Below are positions 8,135-28,429 of a stretch of DNA of 64,000 nucleotides, piece after piece. How positions within the stretch are numbered: position 1 is the stretch's first letter; each line of letters starts with the position of its first letter. This DNA is from Roridomyces roridus (lineage: Eukaryota > Basidiomycota > Agaricomycetes > Agaricales > Mycenaceae), in the NCBI GenBank assembly GCA_029378245.1, contig JARKIF010000017.1:558001-622000 (forward strand), written 5' to 3'. The translations under genes and the position numbers were made by a program. The notes under the pieces were generated by a model. The model made no database searches and had not been told where the DNA came from. It worked only from the letters and a program-made list of their open reading frames with translations.

Positions 8135-10474
8135 ATGAGGTTGCTTTCACTCCTTTCTCTTCTCTTCGTCTCTCCTCTTTCCCTCATCGGCTCCGCCAAG
8201 GGATCACCCAACGCACTCGACGGAATCTCCTTGGAGGCTAGAGGTAAGGGTCCGTTGTACCAAGTGAAGGCGAAACTAATCTCTATGCATAGCACCCTTC
8301 CAGTGCAGCGGCCAGACAACTTTTTGCTGTGATGCGTTCATATCCACGGAGGGCATAGTCATTTTCGACCTCCTTCTCGGAAAGAAGGTGCCGCCGGCTC
8401 TTCAAGGCGGAGATATCGGTATCGGATGCAAAGTGCCTGCTGCTGGGGCCGTTTGGTAAGTTTTCCGTTCTCTGCCTATACGAATACGCGTACTCATCCA
8501 ATCCAATCCAGTGCCGCGCCCGCGTCGTTGAACACTTGCTGCACGAACACCTTGGGTGTTGGAGTCACCGTAAACTGCAATCCTGGTGAGTGGAGAGAAC
8601 TTGGATGTTAAGAGATGGGGATTAAACCTTTGAATTGCACTATTTAGTGACCCCCACTCTCATCGTGAGCTCCGCGCCGGTTTCGTCGATTCACCCAAGC
8701 AGTTCTGCTCCGGTTTCCTCAGTGCGCCCGAGCAGCTCTGCCCCCGTATCGTCTGCACCTGGGTCTTCAATTCGCCCAAGCAGTTCGGCGCCCGTGTCGT
8801 CTGCACCTGGGTCTTCAATTCGTCCCAGCAGTTCGGCGCCCGTGTCGTCTGCACCTGGGTCTTCAATTCGTCCCAGCAGTTCTGCGCCGGTGTCCTCTGC
8901 ACCAGGGTCATCGATTCGCCCGAGTAGTGCCCCAGTTTCGTCTGCACCGGTCTCGTCGATTCGGCCAAGTAGTTCCGTGCCGGTGTCCTCTGCACCAGGG
9001 TCATCGATCCGCCCGAGTAGTGCCCCGGTGTCTTCTGCACCAGTGTCATCAATTCGGCCCAGCAGTTCCGTGCCGGTGTCCTCTGCACCAGTGTCATCGA
9101 TTCGTCCCAGCAGTTCCGTGCCGGTGTCCTCTGCACCAGGGTCATCAATTCGCCCGAGTAGTGCCCCGGTTTCGTCTGCACCAGTGTCATCAATTCGCCC
9201 GAGTAGTGCTCCGGTGTCGTCTGCGCCAGTCTCGTCGATTCGGCCAAGCAGTTCCGTGCCGGTCTCCTCTGCACCACTGTCATCGATTCGGCCAAGCAGT
9301 TCCGTGCCGGTGTCCTCTGCACCAGGGTCATCGATCCGCCCGAGTAGTGCCCCGGTTTCGTCTGCACCAGTGTCATCGATTCGGCCAAGCAGTTCTGCCC
9401 CAGTTTCGTCTGCGCCAGTCTCGTCGATTCGGCCAAGCAGTTCCGTGCCGGTCTCGTCCATTTCCGTGCCACCAGGGTCATCAATTCGCCCTAGTAGTGC
9501 CCCAGTTTCGTCTGCGCCAGTCTCGTCGATTCGGCCAAGCAGTTCCGTGCCGGTCTCGTCCATTTCCGTGCCACCAGGGTCATCAATTCGCCCTAGTAGT
9601 GCCCCAGTTTCGTCTGCACCAGTGTCATCGATTCGGCCAAGCAGTTCTGCCCCAGTTTCGTCTGCGCCAGTCTCGTCGATTCGGCCAAGCAGTTCCGTTC
9701 CAGTGTCCTCTGCACCAGGGTCATCGATCCGCCCGAGTAGTGCCCCGGTTTCGTCTGCACCAGTCTCGTCGATTCGGCCAAGCAGTTCCGTGCCGGTTTC
9801 GTCTGCGCCAGGGTCATCGATTCGCCCGAGTAGTGCCCCAGTTTCGTCGGCGCCAGTCTCTTCTGCACGCCCCAGCAGCTCTGCCCCCGTATCGTCTGCG
9901 CCGGTGTCGTCAGTGCGCCCAAGCAGTTCTGCGCCAGTCTCGTCCGTTCGTCCCAGCAGCTCTGTCATAAACACGGTATCAGTATCTCGTAGCAGCTCGG
10001 CAGGCAAGTCCCATAATTACCGGCCTCAGGCTCGTTCAATACTAACCCGTGTGCTTCAGCGAGTCCCGGACCTACGGCAATCACCTGCGCCGCCAAAGCC
10101 ACGTTCTGCTGCGATGCGCTCGAGGCTTCGCACGGCGCCACTGGGATCAGCGCTCTCCAGCAGGACGGGATCAACCCCGCCGATACGGGTCTTGGACAGA
10201 TTATTGGGATTAAATGCGCGCCGATTACAGTTCTGCGCGGGATTCAGAAATGGTGCGTGCGCGTACATTCGTATTGGATCGCCAGTAAACTTACCCGCCA
10301 ACCGCATCACAGCAAAAACACGCAGGTGGCTGCGAAATGTTGTGGGAACCTTGGAGGGACTAGCCATAGCACCGCGTTCAAGTGCGCGTTCGGTAAGCTT
10401 CCGAATTCACCTATGGACCTCAACGATGATGCTGAGGTGCATTTACAGCGCCTGCGGATGGTTTCCCGGTTTAA
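8135..10474 (+). CDS. HYD1: double hydrophobin with long Ser/Pro repeat linker
   Basis: Seven exons (8135-8243, 8293-8455, 8512-8585, 8648-10003, 10060-10252, 10313-10392, 10449-10474), summing to 666 residues with consistent phases. Residues 1-22 are a signal peptide. Residues about 40-112 carry a hydrophobin cysteine pattern C-X6-CC-X32-C-X8-C-X8-CC-X11-C. Residues about 115-567 are repeats of the type SSAPVSSIRPSS, probably O-glycosylated. Residues about 573-657 hold a second full pattern, C-X6-CC-X34-C-X11-C-X8-CC-X13-C. Hydrophobins self-assemble at air-water and cell-wall interfaces, so two heads on an extended stalk could bridge surfaces (inference). Intron 4 has a GC donor (GCAAGT) and a perfect TACTAAC branch site. 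The large open minus-strand frame here is a composition shadow. Confidence 0.85.
8660..9966 (+). repeat. HYD1 linker minisatellite
   Basis: Degenerate in-frame tandem repeats coding units such as SSAPGSSIRPSS and SSVPVSS, with runs differing by one or two third-base changes. Repeat length varies around 36-54 bases. Third-position variation with conserved residues suggests selection on the protein. Confidence 0.85.
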
Positions 10475-15829: not shown

Positions 15830-18800
15830 ATGCGGTCCCATTCTCTCCTCGTCTTCTCTGCTCTCGCCTTCGCCGTAGATGGGGCGGTTCTCAGTACTCA
15901 CCCTCCCGGTGGAGGCACTTTAGCTGCTCGAGGATCGAGTACGTGATATCCTCGTGCACAAAATAAAGCTGACATCGTCTAGGTTTTGTCTGCACATGCA
16001 AGAAGACCTTTTGCTGCAGCTCCTTTGTCTCCACGGCTGGCGTGGACATCGAGAACCTCATCGGAAGTCACAGCGTCCCCAATGAGGCTCGCGGAAGTCA
16101 GGTTGGCATTGGATGCTCGCTCACCACTGGGAATAGCTGGTACGACGGGATTCCTTTCCTTTCTTCGCAAGGACCGGTTCTCATCTTCGTGTCAGTCCCA
16201 ATAACAATCACCAAGCCACATGCTGCGAAACTTTACTCGGATACAACGGAATTGCCATCGACTGTACTCACAGTGAGTATTATCCGCTGGAGTACCGAAG
16301 ACGATGCTGACGACGATTTACAGTCACGACCGGTACTCAGGCCTGCCCATCTCCCGCCCCTGCATCGGCATCGACCGTTCATCCTAGTTCCTCGGGAGCT
16401 TCCTCGGTCAGGGCGAGCTCATCGGTGGCGTCGTCTGCGAAAGCCAGCCCGGCGTCCGCGTCTTCGGTCGCTGCCTCGTCAGCCCATGCTAGCTCTGCCC
16501 CAGCGTCAGCGCCAGTTTCATCACTTGCAGCCTCGTCGGTCAAAGCGAGCTCTGCCATTGCCTCCACACCGGCATCCTCTGTTGCTGTATCATCAGCCCA
16601 TGCTAGCTCTGCCCCAGCGTCAGCGCCGATTTCATCAGTTGCAGCCTCGTCAGTCAAAGCGAGCTCCGCCGTTGCCTCCGCACCAGGTTCATCTATTGCT
16701 GCTTCATCAGCGAAAGCAGCCAGCTCTGTCGCTGCCTCCGCGCCGGTTTCGTCTGTGGCTGCTTCATCAGCAAAGGCAAGCTCCGCCGTTGGCTCCACAC
16801 CGGTTTCGTCTGTGGCGGCTTCATCGGCGAAAGCGAGCTCCGCCGTTATCTCCGCACCGGTTTCTTCAGCCCCTGCTTCCTCAGCGAAACCCGCCAGCTC
16901 TATCGCTGCATCTGCCCCGGTTTCTTCTGTTGTTGCTTCATCGGCCAAACCGGCCAGCTCTGTTGCTGCCTCCGCACCGGTTTCGTCTGTGGTTGTGTCA
17001 TCAGCCAAACCAGCCAGCTCTATTGCTGCATCCGCGCCGGTTTCTTCCGTTGTTGCTTCATCAGCCAAACAAGCCAGCTCTGTAGCTGCATCTGCACCGG
17101 TGTCTTCTGTGGTTGCGTCATCAGCCAAACCAGCCAGCTCTGTCGCTGCCTCCGCGCCGGTCTCGTCTGTGGTTGCTTCATCGGCCAAGCCAGCGAGCTC
17201 TGTCGCAGCCTCTGCACCGGTGTCTTCTGTGGTTGCGTCATCAGCCAAGCCAGCGAGCTCTGTCGCAGCCTCTGCACCGGTGTCTTCTGTGGTTGCGTCA
17301 TCAGCCAAACCAGCCAGCTCTGTAGCTGCATCTGCACCGGTGTCTTCTGTGGTTGCATCATCAGCCAAACCAGCCAGCTCTGTCGCTGCCTCCGCGCCGG
17401 TCTCGTCTGTGGTTGCTTCATCGGCCAAGCCAGCCAGCTCTGTTGCTGCCTCCGCGCCGGTTTCTTCCGTTGTTGCTTCATCAGCCAAACCAGCCAGCTC
17501 TGTAGCTGCATCTGCACCGGCTTCCTCAGCTGCTGCTTCATCCGTGAAAGCAGCCAGCTCGGTCGCTGCATCCGTACCGGCTTCATCGGTTGCTGCTTCA
17601 TCAGTGAAAGCTGTGAGCTCTGTTGCTGCCTCCGCGCCGGCTTCTTCCGTGGTTGCATCATCGGCCAAACCGGCCAGCTCCGTTGCACCCTCCGCACCGG
17701 CCTCTTCGGCCCCTGCTTCGTCAGCGAAAGCGAGCTCTGTTGCCGCCTCCGCGCCGGTTTCGTCTGTGGTCGCTTCATCAGTGAAAGCTAGCTCCGCCGT
17801 TGCCTCCGCACCGGTTTCGTCTGTTGCTGCTTCATCAGCGAAAGCGAGCTCTGCCGTTGCCTCTGCGCCGGTTTCTTCGGCCCCTGCTTCCTCAGTGAAA
17901 CCTGCCAGCTCTATTGCTACATCTGCACCAGTTTCTTCCGTTGTTGCTTCATCAGCTAAACCAACCAGCTCTGTCGCTGCATCCGCCCCAGTTTCGTCTG
18001 TCGCTGCATCATCAGCCAAACCGGCCAGCTCCGTTGCTGCCTCCGCACCAGTGTCGTCTGCTGCTGCTTCATCAGTGAAAGCTAGCTCCCCCGGTGCCTC
18101 CGTGCCGGTTTCTTCTGTGGTTGTATCATCAGCCAAACCAGCCAGTTCTGTTGCTGCATCCGCACCGGTTTCGTCCGTCATTGCTTCATCAGCCAAGCCA
18201 GCGAGCTCTGTTGCAGCCTCTGCACCAGTTTCTTCTGTGGTTGCGTCATCAGCCAAACCAGCCAGTTCTGTCGCTGCATCCGCACCGGTTTCATCCGTCG
18301 TTGCTTCATCAGCTAAACCAGCGAGCTCTGTCGCTGCATCCGTACCAGTTTCTTCTGTGGTTGCTTCCTCAGCCAAACCAGCCAGTTCTGTTGCTGCCTC
18401 CGCCCCAGTTTCGTCTGTCGTTGCATCATCAACCAAACCGGCCAGCTCCGTTGCTGTCTCCACACCGGTGTCATCTGCTGCTGGTTCATCAGTGAAGGCT
18501 AGCTCCCCCGTTGCCTCCGCGCCGGTTTCTTCTGTGGTTGTGTCATCAGCCAAACCAGCCAGTTCTGTTGCTGCATCAGCACCGGTTTCGTCCGTCGTTG
18601 CTTCATCAGCCAAGCCAGCAAGCTCTGTTGCAGCCTCTGCACCGGTTTCGTCTGTCGTTGCTTCATCAGCCAAACCAGCCAGCTCCATCGCTGGATCTGC
18701 GCCGGCTTCATCCGTGATTGCCTCATCAGCTAAACCAGCCAGTTCTGTTGCTGCATCCGTACCGGTTTCGTCCGTAATTGCTTCATCAGCTAAACCAGCC

Positions 18801-20551
18801 AGTTCTGTTGCTGCATCCGTACCGGTTTCGTCTGTTGTTGCTTCCTCAGCCAAACCAGCCAGCTCCATCACTGCATCTGTGCCGGCTTCTTCGGCCCCTG
18901 CACCGGTTTCGTCTGTGGCTGCTTCATCAGCAAAAGCGAGCTCCGCCGTTACCTCCCCACCGGCTTCTTCGGCCCCTGCTTCATCAGCCAAGCCAGCGAG
19001 CTCTGTTGCAGCCTCTGCACCGGTTTCGTCTGGGGCTGCGTCATCTGCCAAAGCAGCCAGTTCTGCTGCAGCCTCCGCACCGGCCTCTTCTGTGGTTGCT
19101 TCATCAGTTAAAGCCGCCAGCTCCGCCGCTGCCTCCGCACCACCTTCTTCAGCCCCTGCTTCGTCAGTCAAGGCAGCCAGCTCTGTGGCTGCATCCACGC
19201 CGGTCTCATCCATTGTTGCTTCATCAGCCAAAGCAGCCAGTTCTGTTGCTGCATCCGCACCGGCTTCGTCCGTCGTTGCTTCATCAGCCAAAGCAGCCAG
19301 CTCTGTCGCAGCCTCTGCACCGGTGTCTTCTGTGGTTGCGTCATCAGCCAAACCAGCCAGCTCTGTCGCTGCATCCGCACCGGCTTCGTCCGTCGTTGCT
19401 TCATCAGCCAAGCCAGCGAGCTCTGTCGCAGCCTCTGCACCGGTGTCTTCTGTGGTTGCGTCATCAGCCAAACCAGCCAGCTCTGTCGCTGCCTCCGCGC
19501 CGGTCTCGTCCGTCGTTGCTTCATCAGCCAAGCCAGCGAGCTCTGTCGCAGCCTCTGCACCGGTGTCTTCTGTGGTTGCGTCATCAGCCAAACCAGCCAG
19601 CTCTGTTGCTGCCTCCACGCCGGTCTCGTCTGTGGTTGCTTCATCGGCCAAGCCAGCGAGCTCTGTCGCAGCCTCTGCACCGGTGTCTTCTGTGGTTGCG
19701 TCATCAGCCAAACCAGCCAGCTCTGTTGCTGCCTCCGCGCCGGTCTCGTCTGTGGTTGCTTCATCGGCCAAACCAGCCAGCTCTGTCGCTGGATCCGGAC
19801 CGGCTTCTTCGGCCCCTGCTTCATCAGTGAAAGCAGTTTCATCGGCCGCTGCTCAGGCTTCCACCATCTTTTTTGTGCCCAGCGCCGCCTCGGCTTCAAC
19901 CGTTGTTAGTACATCCTCCGCTCGTGCTGGTGCTAGCGGTTTGGCTGCATCCTCTGTTGCCGTTGCGTCGTCGAGCGTTGCTTCCCGGTCTGCCAGTAGT
20001 TCCGGTGAGTCTGCAATTTTCGATGTGAGACTTTAAACTGACCTTCTACCAGCTGCATCTGTGCCTACCTCCGTCTCGCGTCCAGGTGCCGCTCCTTCGA
20101 GCTCTGCGCCCTCAATTTCTCGCTCGTCCTCTGCCGCACAACCTAGTCCATCCGCCGGTACAGGTACATGCACCTCCCAGGCGACGTTCTGCTGCAAGAG
20201 TATCGCTGAGGCGATTGGTACGAGTGGGCGTCAGTGCCTCGCCAACCATGGGCTACAGCCTGGCGATGCGGGTGTCGGGAATATCATTGGGATTGAATGT
20301 TCGCCGATTATGGTTTTGCGCGGGATGCAAGTTTGGTGCGTATTCGAATTGAATCGCGAGCGCGAGAATTGAACTGACTATTTGTAGCAACGAAGGTGAT
20401 GTCGCCGCACAGTGCTGCGACCCGCTTGAAGATAACACGACGGGGTTGGATTGCAGTCCAGGTGAGAGTCAACCGTTTGTGAATGCAAGACGGGGACTTA
20501 TAGATGATTGTAGTGTCTCCGTGGAACACAGCGACTGGGAGTGCCGTCTAA
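15830..20551 (+). CDS. HYD2: double hydrophobin with giant Ser/Ala repeat linker
   Basis: Seven exons (15830-15938, 15983-16139, 16196-16272, 16324-20004, 20053-20335, 20388-20461, 20514-20551), 1,472 residues. The plan matches HYD1, including an identical 109-nt first exon and equivalent phases. After a signal peptide (MRSHSLLVFSALAFAVDGAV) comes a hydrophobin domain (residues about 40-113; first Cys doubled as VCTC; CC-X32-C-X7-C-X8-CC-X12-C). About 1,230 residues of SSVVASSAKPASSVAASAPV repeats follow, about 52 units of 60 nt. A second domain spans residues about 1377-1460 (C-X6-CC-X34-C-X11-C-X8-CC-X11-C, one extra Cys), ending SPWNTATGSAV. Likely secreted to wall or aerial surfaces. The 1,130-codon open frame on the other strand is a by-product of repeat composition. 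Confidence 0.85.
16425..19830 (+). repeat. 60-bp coding minisatellite of HYD2
   Basis: Period is exactly 60 bases over about 3.3 kb; successive units are in register, each coding about 20 residues with SSAKPA or SSVKAS followed by AASAPVSS. Several 120-bp higher-order blocks (for example 19261-19800) are nearly identical, indicating recent unequal exchange. Confidence 0.9.
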
Positions 20552-24403: not shown

Positions 24404-25697
24404 TTAATGGTGCTGGACCTGGGCGTTGACAGCGTTCAACTCGTGAATCGCCCGCTCGAGCGCGCCACTCGCAGTGGTCCACGCCGCGCCGACAAGTTGG
24501 TGCTCAGCCGGGACGGTCATGGCGTTCTGCAAGCCGGGGAAGATGCTCTGCGTACGAAAAAAAAAATGGATTGGAATCAATGATACTAGGGAGGAACGGT
24601 GGACGTACGCTGCCCCCAGAAAGCAATCCCTGCAACGCGCCCCCCAAGCTGCTGAGGACGCCCGCCAACGAGCCGAGGGGGTTCGACTGCGCCGAGGAGC
24701 CGATTGCTGATTGGATTGCACTGAGAGTATTCAGGAGGTTGGCTAGGATCGCCGTGAGCTACGACGAGATCATCAGTATTCCCGCTGGATGGATAAATGG
24801 AGTAGAAAGTTCACGCACTCCATTACCGAAACCCGTCATCCCGCCCGTCACAGTGAGGACGGTACCGGGGAGAATGCTGAGCGAGTTGGCGGGTCCATTG
24901 GCGAGATCGCCCTGAACAAGTACGGCTAGTTTAGTCGTTGGACTCAATAGAAGACACACAAAGACATACCGAAAGCCCGCCGATCTGCTGAAGCTGCGAA
25001 GTGGCTTGATTGACTGTGCCAGTCAGCTGGCTGAGTCCAGACATGATCTGAAAGCAGGCACGACTGTTAGCTAGCCTGACTTGCACGGAACTTGAACAAG
25101 ACGAATACGCACACTTTCCAGGATGGCCGAAGGATCCTTCATGATAGGTTCAGAATCCTTAGAATTGCAATTCAACGCCACACTTACAGGGTTAGCCCCA
25201 AGTAGCCCCGTGTTGATTCCGAGGGGGACGAGCATGTTGCCCTGAGATCCGGCGAAGAGGGAGCCGAGTTGATTCAAGATGTCGGTGATGGAGCCGCTGA
25301 TGGTTCTGTCTACGAGGCGCGCGGCGTGGCTGGTGAGATGACTGCCCGCGGCAGTAGCAGCTGCATGGCAGCCGAAGGGACTGGTGGGAATGGGCGGCGT
25401 TACACTGGGCCGCCCAGTTGGAAGGTTGGTCGGCACAGGTGGAAACAAACCCGTCACACCCGTCGGGAAGCCCGGGAGAGTAGGGAGAGCTGTGGGAGTA
25501 GGCGGTGCCGCACCAGTGGGGAACTCCGGCAGATTCGGGAGCGTCGGAAGGTTGGGGAAGCCTCCCAAGCCTCCCAGTCCGCCCAACCCGCCAAAGAAGG
25601 GTTCCGGTGCTGGCGCGGGAGCGGGGGAGGGAGCCGCGGTAGAGAGAAGACCGGAGCTGGATAGAAGGATGGCAATGGAGACGAGTCTAAAATGCAT
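24404..25697 (-). CDS. Secreted Pro/Gly-rich protein, unknown family
   Basis: Read leftwards from ATG 25697. Exon 1 (25697-25188) encodes signal peptide MHFRLVSIAILLSSSGLLST, a PAPAPAPEP stretch, GGLGGLGGLGG, then NLPTLPNLPEFPTG-type repeats. The following exons (25136-25113, 25047-24970, then three more joined at GTGCGT and GTACGT donors near 24830 and 24608) encode a helical, small-residue region with SQLTGTVNQATSQLQQIGGL and LTAILANLLNTLSAIQSA, ending AQVQHH at 24404. One exon is only 24 nt. The order (signal, flexible Pro/Gly part, amphipathic helices) suggests a wall or surface protein. No named family is recognised. It directly follows the hydrophobin/oxygenase block, convergent with oxygenase C (65 bp apart). 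Confidence 0.7.
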
Positions 25698-25759
25698 CTT
25701 GAAGGCTGGAACTCAGAACACAAGGCGAGTTGGGAGCGAGTTGAGGTATTCGGCGTCGA

Positions 25760-25766
25760 TTTTATA
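25760..25766 (-). promoter_or_regulatory. TATA box of the secreted Pro/Gly-rich gene
   Basis: TATAAAA on the minus strand, 63 bases upstream of the ATG at 25697. Confidence 0.55.
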
Positions 25767-25836
25767 CTGGGGCCAAGTGCTTAGTGAATTCCGCATACTG
25801 GTCGACGGCCGTCGTTCTGCCTGTGCTCTGAAGTAA

Positions 25837-27075
25837 TTAAATCAGACTTGCCTTTACATCCACAAGTGTAGGCTCCCCGCGCAGGACCTTGAATGAAACT
25901 CGACGGCCGTTGCTACTTACGAGACGCGTGATCCAAATCGATATCGTGATTCTTCTCTGCGTGAATGTAATAGTACAAGGGTTCGTATTCTCGTGTCCTG
26001 AATCTTGCCATTCCTGCAGAAAGTCAGTCCGTCTACCGTTCGAAATCGGTGCACAAACCTTTATTGGGAGTACGTTAAGACCATGGATTAATTCTGGGGA
26101 TGTTTCTCTCGATCCTGGCACCAACTCTGGGCCTGTGAGATTTGGGTTAAATCCGGGACAGGGACTATCGAATAACATACAATCGATGCCTCTGTTTTGA
26201 GAAAGATTCATCGGCCTGCGTGCATGACCAAGGGAAACTGAAGTGAAACTTACTTTCCACTGAAAGGAAATAAATATTGACAAGTTTGTAGATGGAGGAG
26301 AAACTCACTTGTTGCTAGAGACAGGCATGAGACGAGGAACATACGCGAAGAACGTTGAACTCACAATCTTTTGAATGAGTCGTCGGCATGATTGAACAGG
26401 TACTCGGACACAGAGAGTTCTTACTTGCTATGCGATGAAATTCTCGGGTGAGCAGTAGCTCATGGTACCATAAATAGTCCTTACTCGCTGTCGAACGGAA
26501 TTTTGCGGTAAGAGGAGATTGAAGAAACAGCGACACAAACTTACCTCCTGTGGTAATCAAACACCGGTTTGCACACCACGAAATGAGAAGACGCACAGTC
26601 TGTAGAAGAGATCAGAACATGCACTTGCCAGCTACAAGGACTCACAGTCTGTCCCAGGAATTGTAGCGCACTGAGGTACATAGTGTTTACTATTTAGATG
26701 GGACTCACCCACTAATAGCGGAGAAATCTCGTCGAGGGATGTTTGCAATTCGTGGATGAGGACTTACAAACTTTGCGCGGTAAGCACGGAATGTTTGCAG
26801 CACTGAAGAACACTTACAAACTATCGGCACAGTAAATCCAAGTAGCTCGACATTCCACAACATGCCCAGATCACTCACCCGCTGAAGTAACGCATCCACA
26901 GTAAATTGTACCCAGATCGCCCAGAAAACGGCTGGGAGTTTACTTACCTCCTAGAAAAGTGTGTCAGTTTGTCTGCGTGCAATTTACTTTGGACATACAT
27001 ACATAGACGACTTGTATCATGCGGAATGATTCTCTGTGATCTCCGTGCGAGCTGTGGAGCAGTCAATGTTCGCAT
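25837..27075 (-). CDS. Candidate gene with an array of 3-nt and 6-nt microexons
   Basis: Read leftwards. Exon 1 27075-26999 starts MRTLTAPQLARRSQ. Then come consecutive YAG|NNN|GTRNGY units: 26950-26948, 26881-26879, 26820-26818, 26770-26768, 26711-26709, 26648-26646, 26599-26597, 26547-26545, 26487-26485, 26427-26425, 26367-26365 (all 3 nt), then 26314-26309 and 26259-26254 (6 nt). Longer exons follow: 26215-26181, 26132-26059, 26013-25921. Introns are 38-66 nt. All micro-units keep the same phase, and the spliced frame reads through as SGFFGLLSDKFNNGKPMN then LSQNRGIDC and PELVPGSRETSPEL without a stop. The end is uncertain (TAA at 25837). About 112 residues, no known family. Not proven: RNA is needed, and it might be the 3' part of the adjacent ubiquitin-like gene. 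Confidence 0.5.
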
Positions 27076-27264
27076 GTACCGTATGTGGCGGCGACGGCCA
27101 CCCACAAATCCTGAGTTGAGCACTGTTGCTTGACCATGCTTCCGTTGACGACTATGATGGTGTTAATAAAGTATGAGCTCTGATACCGTAGTCTGCACTC
27201 GTGTTGGGAGCTAAGAACGGAGAGGTGTGGACTTTTAGTACTCGACGACTGCTGAATCACACGC

Positions 27265-28429
27265 TCACCAATCGATCCACAGCTTGTCTACGGCTACCTC
27301 TGCGTTGGCCTGACCACACTGCGGGCAAGTCCCATACTGCTGAGGCAGGTTGCGCGCGCGTTTGATAATACCAACATCAAACTTCATCCCTTCTTTCACT
27401 CCCCCGAGTCGAAAGTCGCGTTGCGTGATAATCTGACCGTCTGTGGCGACAATACTGTAGTCACCTCGATCAATGTAGCTGCTCCCCGCTTCAGGGTTGT
27501 CGCAGAGATACGCTTTGAGGATCCGATCCAAATGCTGTGGTGGTAAGGATCGAGGGCAAGAATTTCAGCAAGGAACGTACATCAAAACCAGAGAAGTGGT
27601 GCAGTGGAATTGGTATGGATCGGCCCACTGGGTCTATCAGGTAGAAAACGGGTTCCCGGATATGGTGCAGCGCCATTGCGGCGATCAATTGCTGAACACC
27701 GGCATCGACTTGTCGTATGTCGGACAATGCTTTGCGAATCTCGATCCCTCTTTGAGAAATTGCAGCCGACAGAAATGTCGAAAGGACCCTGCGGCGACAC
27801 CGATCAGCTGGTACTAATGAAAAAAGAATGAAATTGCCACGAACACATTAAGGGTTCCGAAGTTGCCAACGTTGAGCACTTGTGATTCGACCGAATCGAC
27901 CCGGGATCCGATATATTGCACCTGTGAGCCAACCCGTCCAATGTGGTCTCCTAGTTCATGCAATCGAATACTGTAGTTGGCCAATAAGCACCACAGTAAC
28001 ACATATAAAAGAGACGAACCTATTCGATGAAGCCAGCAGATCGCGCAGCGCTTCGCGACGCTCAGAGATCCTCACCCTCCAAGAAGCCAGATCCCTCTCC
28101 TCCACCGCAACCGACCACGTTTTCCGGAAAAGGCCCACAAGGCCAGCGGTGTCATTTACGTTGATTTTGGCGGAGAAATCGTCCAGAAGTGAACGACAAA
28201 GGTCGACCTCGGCCCAAAGTCTGTCGGTGAATCGGTCTTGGTCAAAGACAAACGTGAGCTGGCTCATGTCGTCGCACAAGCCCTCCAGAGTGGCCATGAG
28301 CGCCCGACGACGGGATGATTGCTCCGAGGCACTCCGGAGTACATCGATGATGCGTTTCGCGATGTGGGCCGCCTCCAAGATATCCCCGAACGATCCAAAG
28401 GTGAGAGCGACGGCCACAGCGGAGGGCAT
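27265..28429 (-). CDS. Ubiquitin-like-domain protein with zinc-ribbon-like tail
   Basis: Read leftwards. Exons: 28429-28020, 27970-27847, about 27809-27581, 27534-27265. The N-terminal part (MPSAVAVALTFGSFGDILEA, then helical ALMATLEGLCDDMSQLTF) resembles the STAND-associated helical region common in mushroom proteins. The middle has a coiled coil with repeated IGxxVxxV motifs. The C-terminal half has PVFYLIDPVGRSIPIPLHHF and the fold DRILKAYLCDNPEAGSSYID, which I recall as a ubiquitin-like domain in agaricomycete proteins. A CPQCGQAN half zinc-ribbon follows, ending KLWIDW at a TGA (27267-27265). That TGA overlaps a GTGAGC donor, so further exons are possible. Function unknown; a signalling or scaffold role is only an inference. 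Exon 2/3 joint is approximate. Confidence 0.6.

Follow-up and report, generated by a model that had tools for sequence, protein, structure and literature searches.

Between positions 27002 and 26216 on the minus strand of the window—the whole 64 000-nt stretch of Roridomyces roridus DNA that was analysed—14 candidate introns of 38–66 nt follow one another, with eleven pieces of 3 nt and two of 6 nt between them. Very likely, we think, this array is the genuine and conserved 3' end of a protein-coding gene, built of consecutive phase-0 single-codon exons set between ordinary short U2-type introns and perhaps grown by duplication of a unit. A sequence-only reading of the region had taken it for a stand-alone candidate gene; judging from frame and homology, it is instead the unannotated 3' end of a conserved upstream gene, FB45DRAFT_148922, that starts at 28429.

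When the frame upstream of the array was spliced by hand, the resulting 337 aa matched 61 proteins—those with an organism name all from Mycena or Roridomyces—and the top match, P0001 (FB45DRAFT_148922), was 100% identical. P0001 carries the ubiquitin-like domain ULD_2 (PF22893) at aa 225–305, with 43.3 bits against a cut-off of 24.5. A search of the R. roridus genome with PF22893 returned no match, as did the same search of control genomes, and is hence uninformative. The spliced model encodes 419 aa, of which the first 389, through the first microexon, are identical to the deposited P0001. Its exons measure 410, 126, 208, 266, 105 and 49 nt, then eleven times 3, twice 6, and 51 nt; the 13 microexons hold 45 of the 1257 coding nucleotides, and the TAG ends at 26165. 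An extra intron at 26180–26133, with a different gene end, is possible when the letters are read by eye. The features of the model are given below from 5' to 3'; the exons numbered 1 to 6 and the last exon come from the spliced model, and the array features come from splice-pattern analysis.

28020..28429, minus strand: exon 1, 410 nt; model identical to P0001 over the first 389 aa
27845..27970, minus strand: exon 2, 126 nt
27581..27788, minus strand: exon 3, 208 nt
27269..27534, minus strand: exon 4, 266 nt; PF22893 (aa 225–305, profile match) spans exons 3 and 4
27106..27210, minus strand: exon 5, 105 nt
27003..27051, minus strand: exon 6, 49 nt, with its 3' end at the conserved motif FRMIQVVY, up to which the family is similar in alignment A1
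26951..27002, minus strand: array intron 1, 52 nt
26948..26950, minus strand: single-codon exon GAG (E); E after VVY also in deposited P0001
26882..26947, minus strand: array intron 2, 66 nt
26879..26881, minus strand: single-codon exon CGG (R)
26821..26878, minus strand: array intron 3, 58 nt
26818..26820, minus strand: single-codon exon TTT (F)
26771..26817, minus strand: array intron 4, 47 nt
26768..26770, minus strand: single-codon exon TTT (F)
26712..26767, minus strand: array intron 5, 56 nt; TGCAAACAT.CC in common with intron 4 (intron comparison)
26709..26711, minus strand: single-codon exon TGG (W)
26649..26708, minus strand: array intron 6, 60 nt
26646..26648, minus strand: single-codon exon ACT (T)
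26600..26645, minus strand: array intron 7, 46 nt
26597..26599, minus strand: single-codon exon ACT (T)
26548..26596, minus strand: array intron 8, 49 nt
26545..26547, minus strand: single-codon exon GAG (E), column 8 of the codon-column comparison
26488..26544, minus strand: array intron 9, 57 nt
26485..26487, minus strand: single-codon exon CGA (R), column 9 of the codon-column comparison
26428..26484, minus strand: array intron 10, 57 nt
26425..26427, minus strand: single-codon exon CAA (Q)
26368..26424, minus strand: array intron 11, 57 nt
26365..26367, minus strand: single-codon exon ATT (I)
26315..26364, minus strand: array intron 12, 50 nt
26309..26314, minus strand: two-codon exon CAACAA (QQ); the paralogue has a single-codon exon for each of the two columns
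26260..26308, minus strand: array intron 13, 49 nt
26254..26259, minus strand: two-codon exon TGGAAA (WK); the paralogue has a single-codon exon for each of the two columns
26216..26253, minus strand: array intron 14, 38 nt
26165..26215, minus strand: last coding exon, ADESFSKQRHRLYVIR and TAG, 51 nt; the simplest 3' end

All 14 array introns have GT..AG ends and lie in phase 0 in the frame of the host gene: ...FRMIQVVY/E/R/F/F/W/T/T/E/R/Q/I/QQ/WK/ADESFSKQRHRLYVIR, then the stop (slashes mark introns). Every one of the 13 pieces is symmetric, a multiple of three in that single phase. The 3-nt pieces are, in order, GAG, CGG, TTT, TTT, TGG, ACT, ACT, GAG, CGA, CAA and ATT, and the 6-nt pieces are CAACAA and TGGAAA; joined, all 13 make 45 nt, GAGCGGTTTTTTTGGACTACTGAGCGACAAATTCAACAATGGAAA, and encode ERFFWTTERQIQQWK. 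By length the introns run 38, 46, 47, 49, 49, 50, 52, 56, 57, 57, 57, 58, 60 and 66 nt; nine are not divisible by three, and introns 1, 6 and 10 contain a stop in the gene's frame. The pieces have the size of microexons (internal exons of about 30 nt or less between splice sites), the splice sites here being predicted from sequence. Intron 1 starts (27002–26993) with GTATGTATGT, a tandem donor, the second site of which, 4 nt downstream, would shift the frame if used. The numbers of introns and pieces, their sizes and their common phase, all claimed earlier, came out the same when recounted, and the sequence said to be common to two neighbouring introns, 'GCAAACAT', is real and lies in introns 4 and 5. 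The proposed frame YAG/NNN/GTRNGY was drawn too narrowly: it holds strictly for seven of the eleven 3-nt pieces, the rest having AAG acceptors (introns 4 and 11) or the donors GTAAGG and GTAAGA.

The deposited P0001 has two more exons, which take it to ...FRMIQVVYE, and goes on as VSKLPAVFWAIWVQF..., a tail that, by eye, reads through array intron 2, splices intron 3 and reads through intron 4. Since the protein passes the conserved motif and then enters the array introns, the array is the 3' continuation of the gene, and its phase is 0. If the single-codon-exon reading is correct, the deposited C-terminus of FB45DRAFT_148922 (P0001; 28429–26165, minus strand) is wrong.

Under a simple chain rule—junctions of the form HAG/3 or 6 nt/GTRNG, linked by introns of 35–75 nt—the array is a chain of 13 junctions. 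Applied to 528 000 control bases (the array-masked window and twenty 10-kb segments of its contig, each on both strands), the same rule gave no chain longer than 2. When the region was shuffled 3000 times under a first-order Markov model, the maximum chain was 0 in 1360 shuffles, 1 in 1583, 2 in 55 and 3 in 2. When exact piece lengths from 1 to 30 nt were scanned, a long chain (11 junctions) appeared solely at 3 nt; other lengths gave 3 or fewer, controls included. A blind scan of 264 kb out of the 90.8 Mb genome yielded no further array of 3- or 6-nt pieces with more than 3 junctions.

A second array, at the same exon boundary and in the same phase, with 14 linked single-codon exons, belongs to a paralogue, FB45DRAFT_523951 (P0011), a gene located from C480:2405902 downwards. 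After ...FRMVQIVH come GAG, GAG, CTG, CTG, a stretch of 106 nt, then GCG, TTG, GAG, CGG, ATG, TTC, CCA, CAT, GAG, ATT and GAA; the array ends in a last exon, RMNFPIAGSDHVP, and its stop. The chain is 14 long under a relaxed rule (donors GT[ACG]NG, introns up to 110 nt) if the 106-nt stretch is taken as one intron, and 7 under the strict rule; controls under the relaxed rule gave a maximum of 3 in 528 kb, and of 4 in the shuffles (2 of 3000). Two lesions are visible. After the first GAG stands GG instead of GT, and the fifth codon has no AG acceptor, which leaves the merged 106-nt intron and no recognisable fifth unit; these lesions could mean decay. Here too the deposited protein reads past its first microexon into an array intron. 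The paralogue region is present twice, with 3258 fetched bases identical, at C480:2403268–2406525 and C10:78987–82244, on contigs of 2.6 Mb and 0.11 Mb; the second copy is either a recent duplication or an assembly haplotig.

Between the introns of the two arrays no position-by-position similarity was detected (permutation p 0.41), yet the spacing and nearly all of the splice sites have been kept, which argues that selection has maintained splicing. When the codon columns of the two are compared, the unshifted register is the best, with a BLOSUM62 score of +3 versus −4 to −28 for 12 shifts (permutation p 0.023); three of 15 columns are identical (E1, E8 and R9; p 0.043), and peptide conservation is weak. 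Neither encoded peptide showed a clear amphipathic helix, the best p being 0.16 among 4 segments in the window and 0.035, best of 7, in the paralogue. Where the window has its two 6-nt exons, the paralogue has four separate single-codon exons, so that the genes differ by intron loss or gain. When 40 of the 61 family proteins were placed in a tree (rows chosen by hand, mostly short or partial ones dropped), the two R. roridus genes came out as sisters with a support of 92/91, under the 95/80 mark for firm branches. The duplication is thus most simply placed on the Roridomyces lineage, after the array had arisen.

Base composition, of which the pattern search made no use, is intron-like in the stretches between the pieces, and for this reason we read them as introns. 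The pyrimidine fraction is 0.604 in the window array, 0.594 in the paralogue array and 0.606 in the five ordinary introns of the gene, versus 0.501 in exons; the mean per intron, 0.610 in the window and 0.599 in the paralogue, compares with 0.479 in 5000 random GT..AG stretches, and none of 20 000 resamples matched the array means. Three branch-point patterns were tried. YTNAY occurs in 12 of the 14 window introns, 7 of 16 in the paralogue and 4 of the 5 ordinary ones, against 0.298 of controls; CTNAY in 7, 3 and 3, against 0.142; and CTRAY in 2, 1 and 1, against 0.067. The first two are enriched in the window array, and hardly in the paralogue; the small number of such motifs in the paralogue, like the rarity of CTRAY in both arrays, speaks against the single-codon-exon reading. 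Donors of the form GTRAGT begin 10 of the 14 window introns and 8 of the 16 paralogue introns, versus none of the gene's five ordinary introns (p 0.011 for the window array); on this small sample, we read the strong donors as making up for the absent exonic half of the U1 site. That a coding gene contains a run of single-codon exons, all in one phase, was the central proposal of the sequence-only reading, and with the same architecture in the paralogue and an intron-like composition in support, it remains the best account of the array.

Splice recognition in fungi with short introns is generally considered to act on the intron as a unit (intron definition), and in fission yeast intron definition was reportedly described by Romfo et al. 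in 2000. Exon size carries little weight under intron definition, and the suggestion that the array would challenge exon-definition models is therefore overstated. Each intron of 38–66 nt would be recognised as a unit, aided by the near-consensus GTRAGT donors. With 3 nt between them, neighbouring introns could hardly be processed simultaneously, and we infer from this that splicing in vivo would be sequential: introns would be removed successively, and every step would make the 3-nt piece the end of a longer exon. To skip any subset of the pieces would drop whole codons and keep the frame. Mispairing among authentic sites would likewise cost codons without a shift of frame, so that the array may be tolerated, and the paralogue has apparently been able to lose two units. 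Retention would be costly, given the nine introns that are not multiples of three and the in-frame stops in introns 1, 6 and 10.

How might such an array arise? An intron-plus-codon unit may have been duplicated repeatedly, each copy adding one residue and one intron; this would explain the exact 3-nt spacing and the constant phase together. The array would predate the Roridomyces gene duplication, and its introns would later have diverged beyond recognition while selection kept the splice signals and the 3-nt spacing. Introns 4 and 5 have 12 nt in common, with one mismatch (nominal p 0.037, among 91 pairs), and units 2 and 8 of the paralogue have GAG/GTGAGTTGCAC in common (best of 105 pairs). 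Adjacent identical codons number three in the window (one pair within CAACAA; p 0.055) and two in the paralogue (p 0.20), for a combined p of 0.020. Neighbouring introns are no more alike than others (permutation p 0.22), the two best of the 91 pairs, 4–9 and 4–6, being non-neighbours, and the traces on which a duplication origin rests are correspondingly weak. We judge the chances of such an origin to be about even.

A bolder idea, that the array is a frame-neutral combinatorial device by which a Mycenaceae family varies a C-terminal recognition tail codon by codon through splicing, strikes us as unlikely. Were it true, any subset of the 13 pieces could be skipped, giving up to 2^13 = 8192 open C-termini per gene, and in evolution the array might grow or shrink by single residues.

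Frame-neutral skipping can also be turned against the single-codon exons themselves: the introns may be real and the 3-nt pieces mostly skipped, either stepwise, in the manner of recursive splicing, or within a few longer introns, so that exon 6 is joined to the last exon. The pieces, all of one or two codons and in one phase, would permit this; very short exons are prone to skipping, according to the part of the source consulted (PMC4674806); and the paralogue seems to be two pieces short with its frame unharmed. If the pieces were discarded, however, there would be no reason for them to be exactly 3 nt, to contain no stops, or to match best in the unshifted register, and the paralogue has kept 14 linked complete units. 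We regard this reading, too, as unlikely.

Distinctly improbable, in our opinion, is that the array is a relic, decaying in a gene that has lost its function. The two splice-site lesions of the paralogue would fit, as would two more family copies, on the window's contig, that look broken. The intact GT..AG ends of all 14 window introns, 10 of them with GTRAGT donors, and a host frame open for 419 codons do not, and since the splice sites are intact although the intron interiors share nothing positional with the paralogue, any decay must be recent. The two further copies, at C79:692977 and C79:695365 (fetched as L028, C79:691477–694875, and L036, C79:694311–697481), are seemingly cut by unrelated sequence. 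In their fetched flanks there is no array, the maximum chain being 1, and both look disrupted; L036 keeps FRLVQFIY followed by GTAAGA, without an array.

What the rest of the family does at the boundary bears on another possibility, that the early stop of the deposited proteins is the true end, reached by read-through after the tyrosine or the first microexon, and that the array is a regulatory cassette in the 3' UTR, acting for example through nonsense-mediated decay. In an alignment of 32 members, similarity stops at FRLVQI-[VF]Y, and from there the deposited tails diverge. The boundary motif is matched by pattern in 33 of the 61 family proteins, and in 13 of these 33 a V directly follows the tyrosine, as expected when a GT donor is read through. 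In four proteins, P0001, P0004 (Mycena pura), P0012 (M. rebaudengoi) and P0020 (M. amicta), one residue separates the tyrosine from VS, which is the expectation for a single codon followed by GTRAGT. These protein tails hint that the array boundary may be common to Mycena species. The 13 with V after the tyrosine would suit a UTR cassette, as would the in-frame stop within intron 1, 6 or 10 when one of these is retained alone. Against it, the deposited tails vary from gene to gene and resemble the guesses of gene-finders, that of P0001 being introns 2 and 4 read through, and UTR introns need neither 3-nt pieces nor a single phase. We give this reading a slim chance.

The array peptide is absent from the family tails and sequences inspected, those of both deposited R. 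roridus proteins included. A profile search (A1), which scored only the 7995 candidates with most words in common, returned 58 proteins, 3 of them new. Past the FRLVQI-Y boundary, the C-termini of P0028, P0032, P0036, P0039, P0046, P0049, P0058 and P0061 are very different; some may resemble DNA-binding motifs, of an HMG-like kind in P0036 and of a zinc-cluster-like kind in P0032 and P0046. Such divergent ends may come either from swapped modules or from fusions made in annotation.

The earlier reading had the joined codons run, without a stop, into a longer exon that ended the gene at 25837. Such an exon is open in the phase-2 frame only; in phase 0, 16 codons lead to the stop at 26165, and position 25837 belongs to another frame. 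A separate small gene of 141 aa might be built on that frame, with phase-2 introns, a start codon split by intron 1 (AT/G) and an end at 25837; the frame is indeed open across all pieces and for 126 codons more. This model, which was first tried to accommodate the 126-codon tail, was dropped when codon signals proved absent and homology fixed the upstream exon in phase 0, and we find it hardly credible. The 126-codon stretch, which is out of frame with the host gene, has GC of 0.48, 0.47 and 0.44 at the three codon positions and so no codon-position signal; its codon score is negative (under a weak codon model, trained on 45 open frames); and equal openness is found at 7.4% of sampled window positions. 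The 141-aa form had no Pfam match; for the 133-aa form, neither a homologue at E <= 1 nor a paralogue elsewhere in the genome turned up, two weak genomic matches (E 0.2 and 1.6) being disregarded. Probably, the 126-codon frame is untranslated. Finally, the idea that the array is a chance pattern or a degenerate tandem repeat without splicing can appeal to weak similarity among a few units, but in the face of the chain statistics, the intron-like composition and a second array with unrelated introns in the paralogue, its probability is negligible.

Three other candidates were set aside. A host of intronic snoRNAs was sought, and 25500–27400 gave no Rfam match above the cut-off (one was sub-threshold, E 0.85). 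Introner-like elements were rejected: when the 90.8 Mb genome was searched with the array DNA, very common words being skipped, the array found no match but itself, and the introns are barely alike. Stwintrons were rejected as well, all 14 introns having their own complete GT..AG ends and no nested donors.

Elsewhere in the window, a gene downstream of the array, running downwards from 25697 on the minus strand, starts, by eye, with MHFRLVSIAILLSSSGLLSTAAPSPAPAP; it is probably a gene with short introns for a secreted Pro/Gly-rich protein. Two long tandem repeats, at 8725–9944 and 16470–19810, with units of 48/93/141 nt and 57/60 nt among others, each sit within an open frame on the plus strand, the first of 617 codons and the second of 1203.

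We know of no denser intron packing in coding sequence than these eleven single-codon exons, or the fourteen linked ones of the paralogue, would represent. If RNA confirms the single-codon exons, they will be an extreme case of tiny exons, and of a gene tail written one amino acid at a time. The array offers a natural test of the limits of intron packing, of intron definition in its pure form, and of whether introns are gained when a codon and an intron are duplicated together. Annotation, too, has a blind spot here: the deposited proteins of both R. roridus genes end inside array introns, and because 13 of the 33 family members extending to the boundary resemble read-through, a family-wide feature may be overlooked.

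Exons this small are known singly. A 1-nt exon has been shown in Arabidopsis APC11 (PMC4674806) and another reported, with transcript support, in CYP621A of Fusarium (PMC12940212), and microexons of 1–3 nt are described in plants (PMC8831610) and in Drosophila homothorax (PMC7392893), in each case as far as the parts of these papers available to us go. Like those of the window, they are internal, have normal splice sites and are often unannotated; unlike the 13 consecutive ones of the window array and the 14 linked ones of the paralogue, they are, in the same parts, isolated. The most clustered case found there is a pair of neighbouring exons in rice, 5 and 12 nt long (PMC8831610). A 2024 paper states, in the portion consulted, that functional microexons had not previously been described in filamentous fungi (PMC11121469). 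P450 genes of Phanerochaete, another agaricomycete, resemble the window gene in their short introns and small exons; in the excerpt at hand, their shortest exon is 6 bp and no codon-by-codon array was found (PMC1184071). Fungal introner-like elements and stwintrons (PMC4457414, PMC8469720) are clustered or proliferating introns, as in the array, which differs from their accounts, so far as we have these, in having neither a repeated sequence element nor nested donors. Literature searches, covering open-licence PMC papers, brought up no codon-by-codon array of single-codon exons. The micro-exon genes (MEGs) of schistosomes, which make protein variants through alternative splicing, have symmetric exons of 6–36 bp that make up about 80% of the coding region, and their products are mostly secreted or membrane-anchored, according to the part of the source available (PMC5825161). 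They share with the window array many consecutive symmetric exons that keep the frame when skipped; whereas small exons make up most of a MEG, in the window gene they hold 45 of 1257 nt, are mostly of 3 nt, and complete a protein with a ubiquitin-like domain, a member of the Mycenaceae ULD_2 (PF22893) family.
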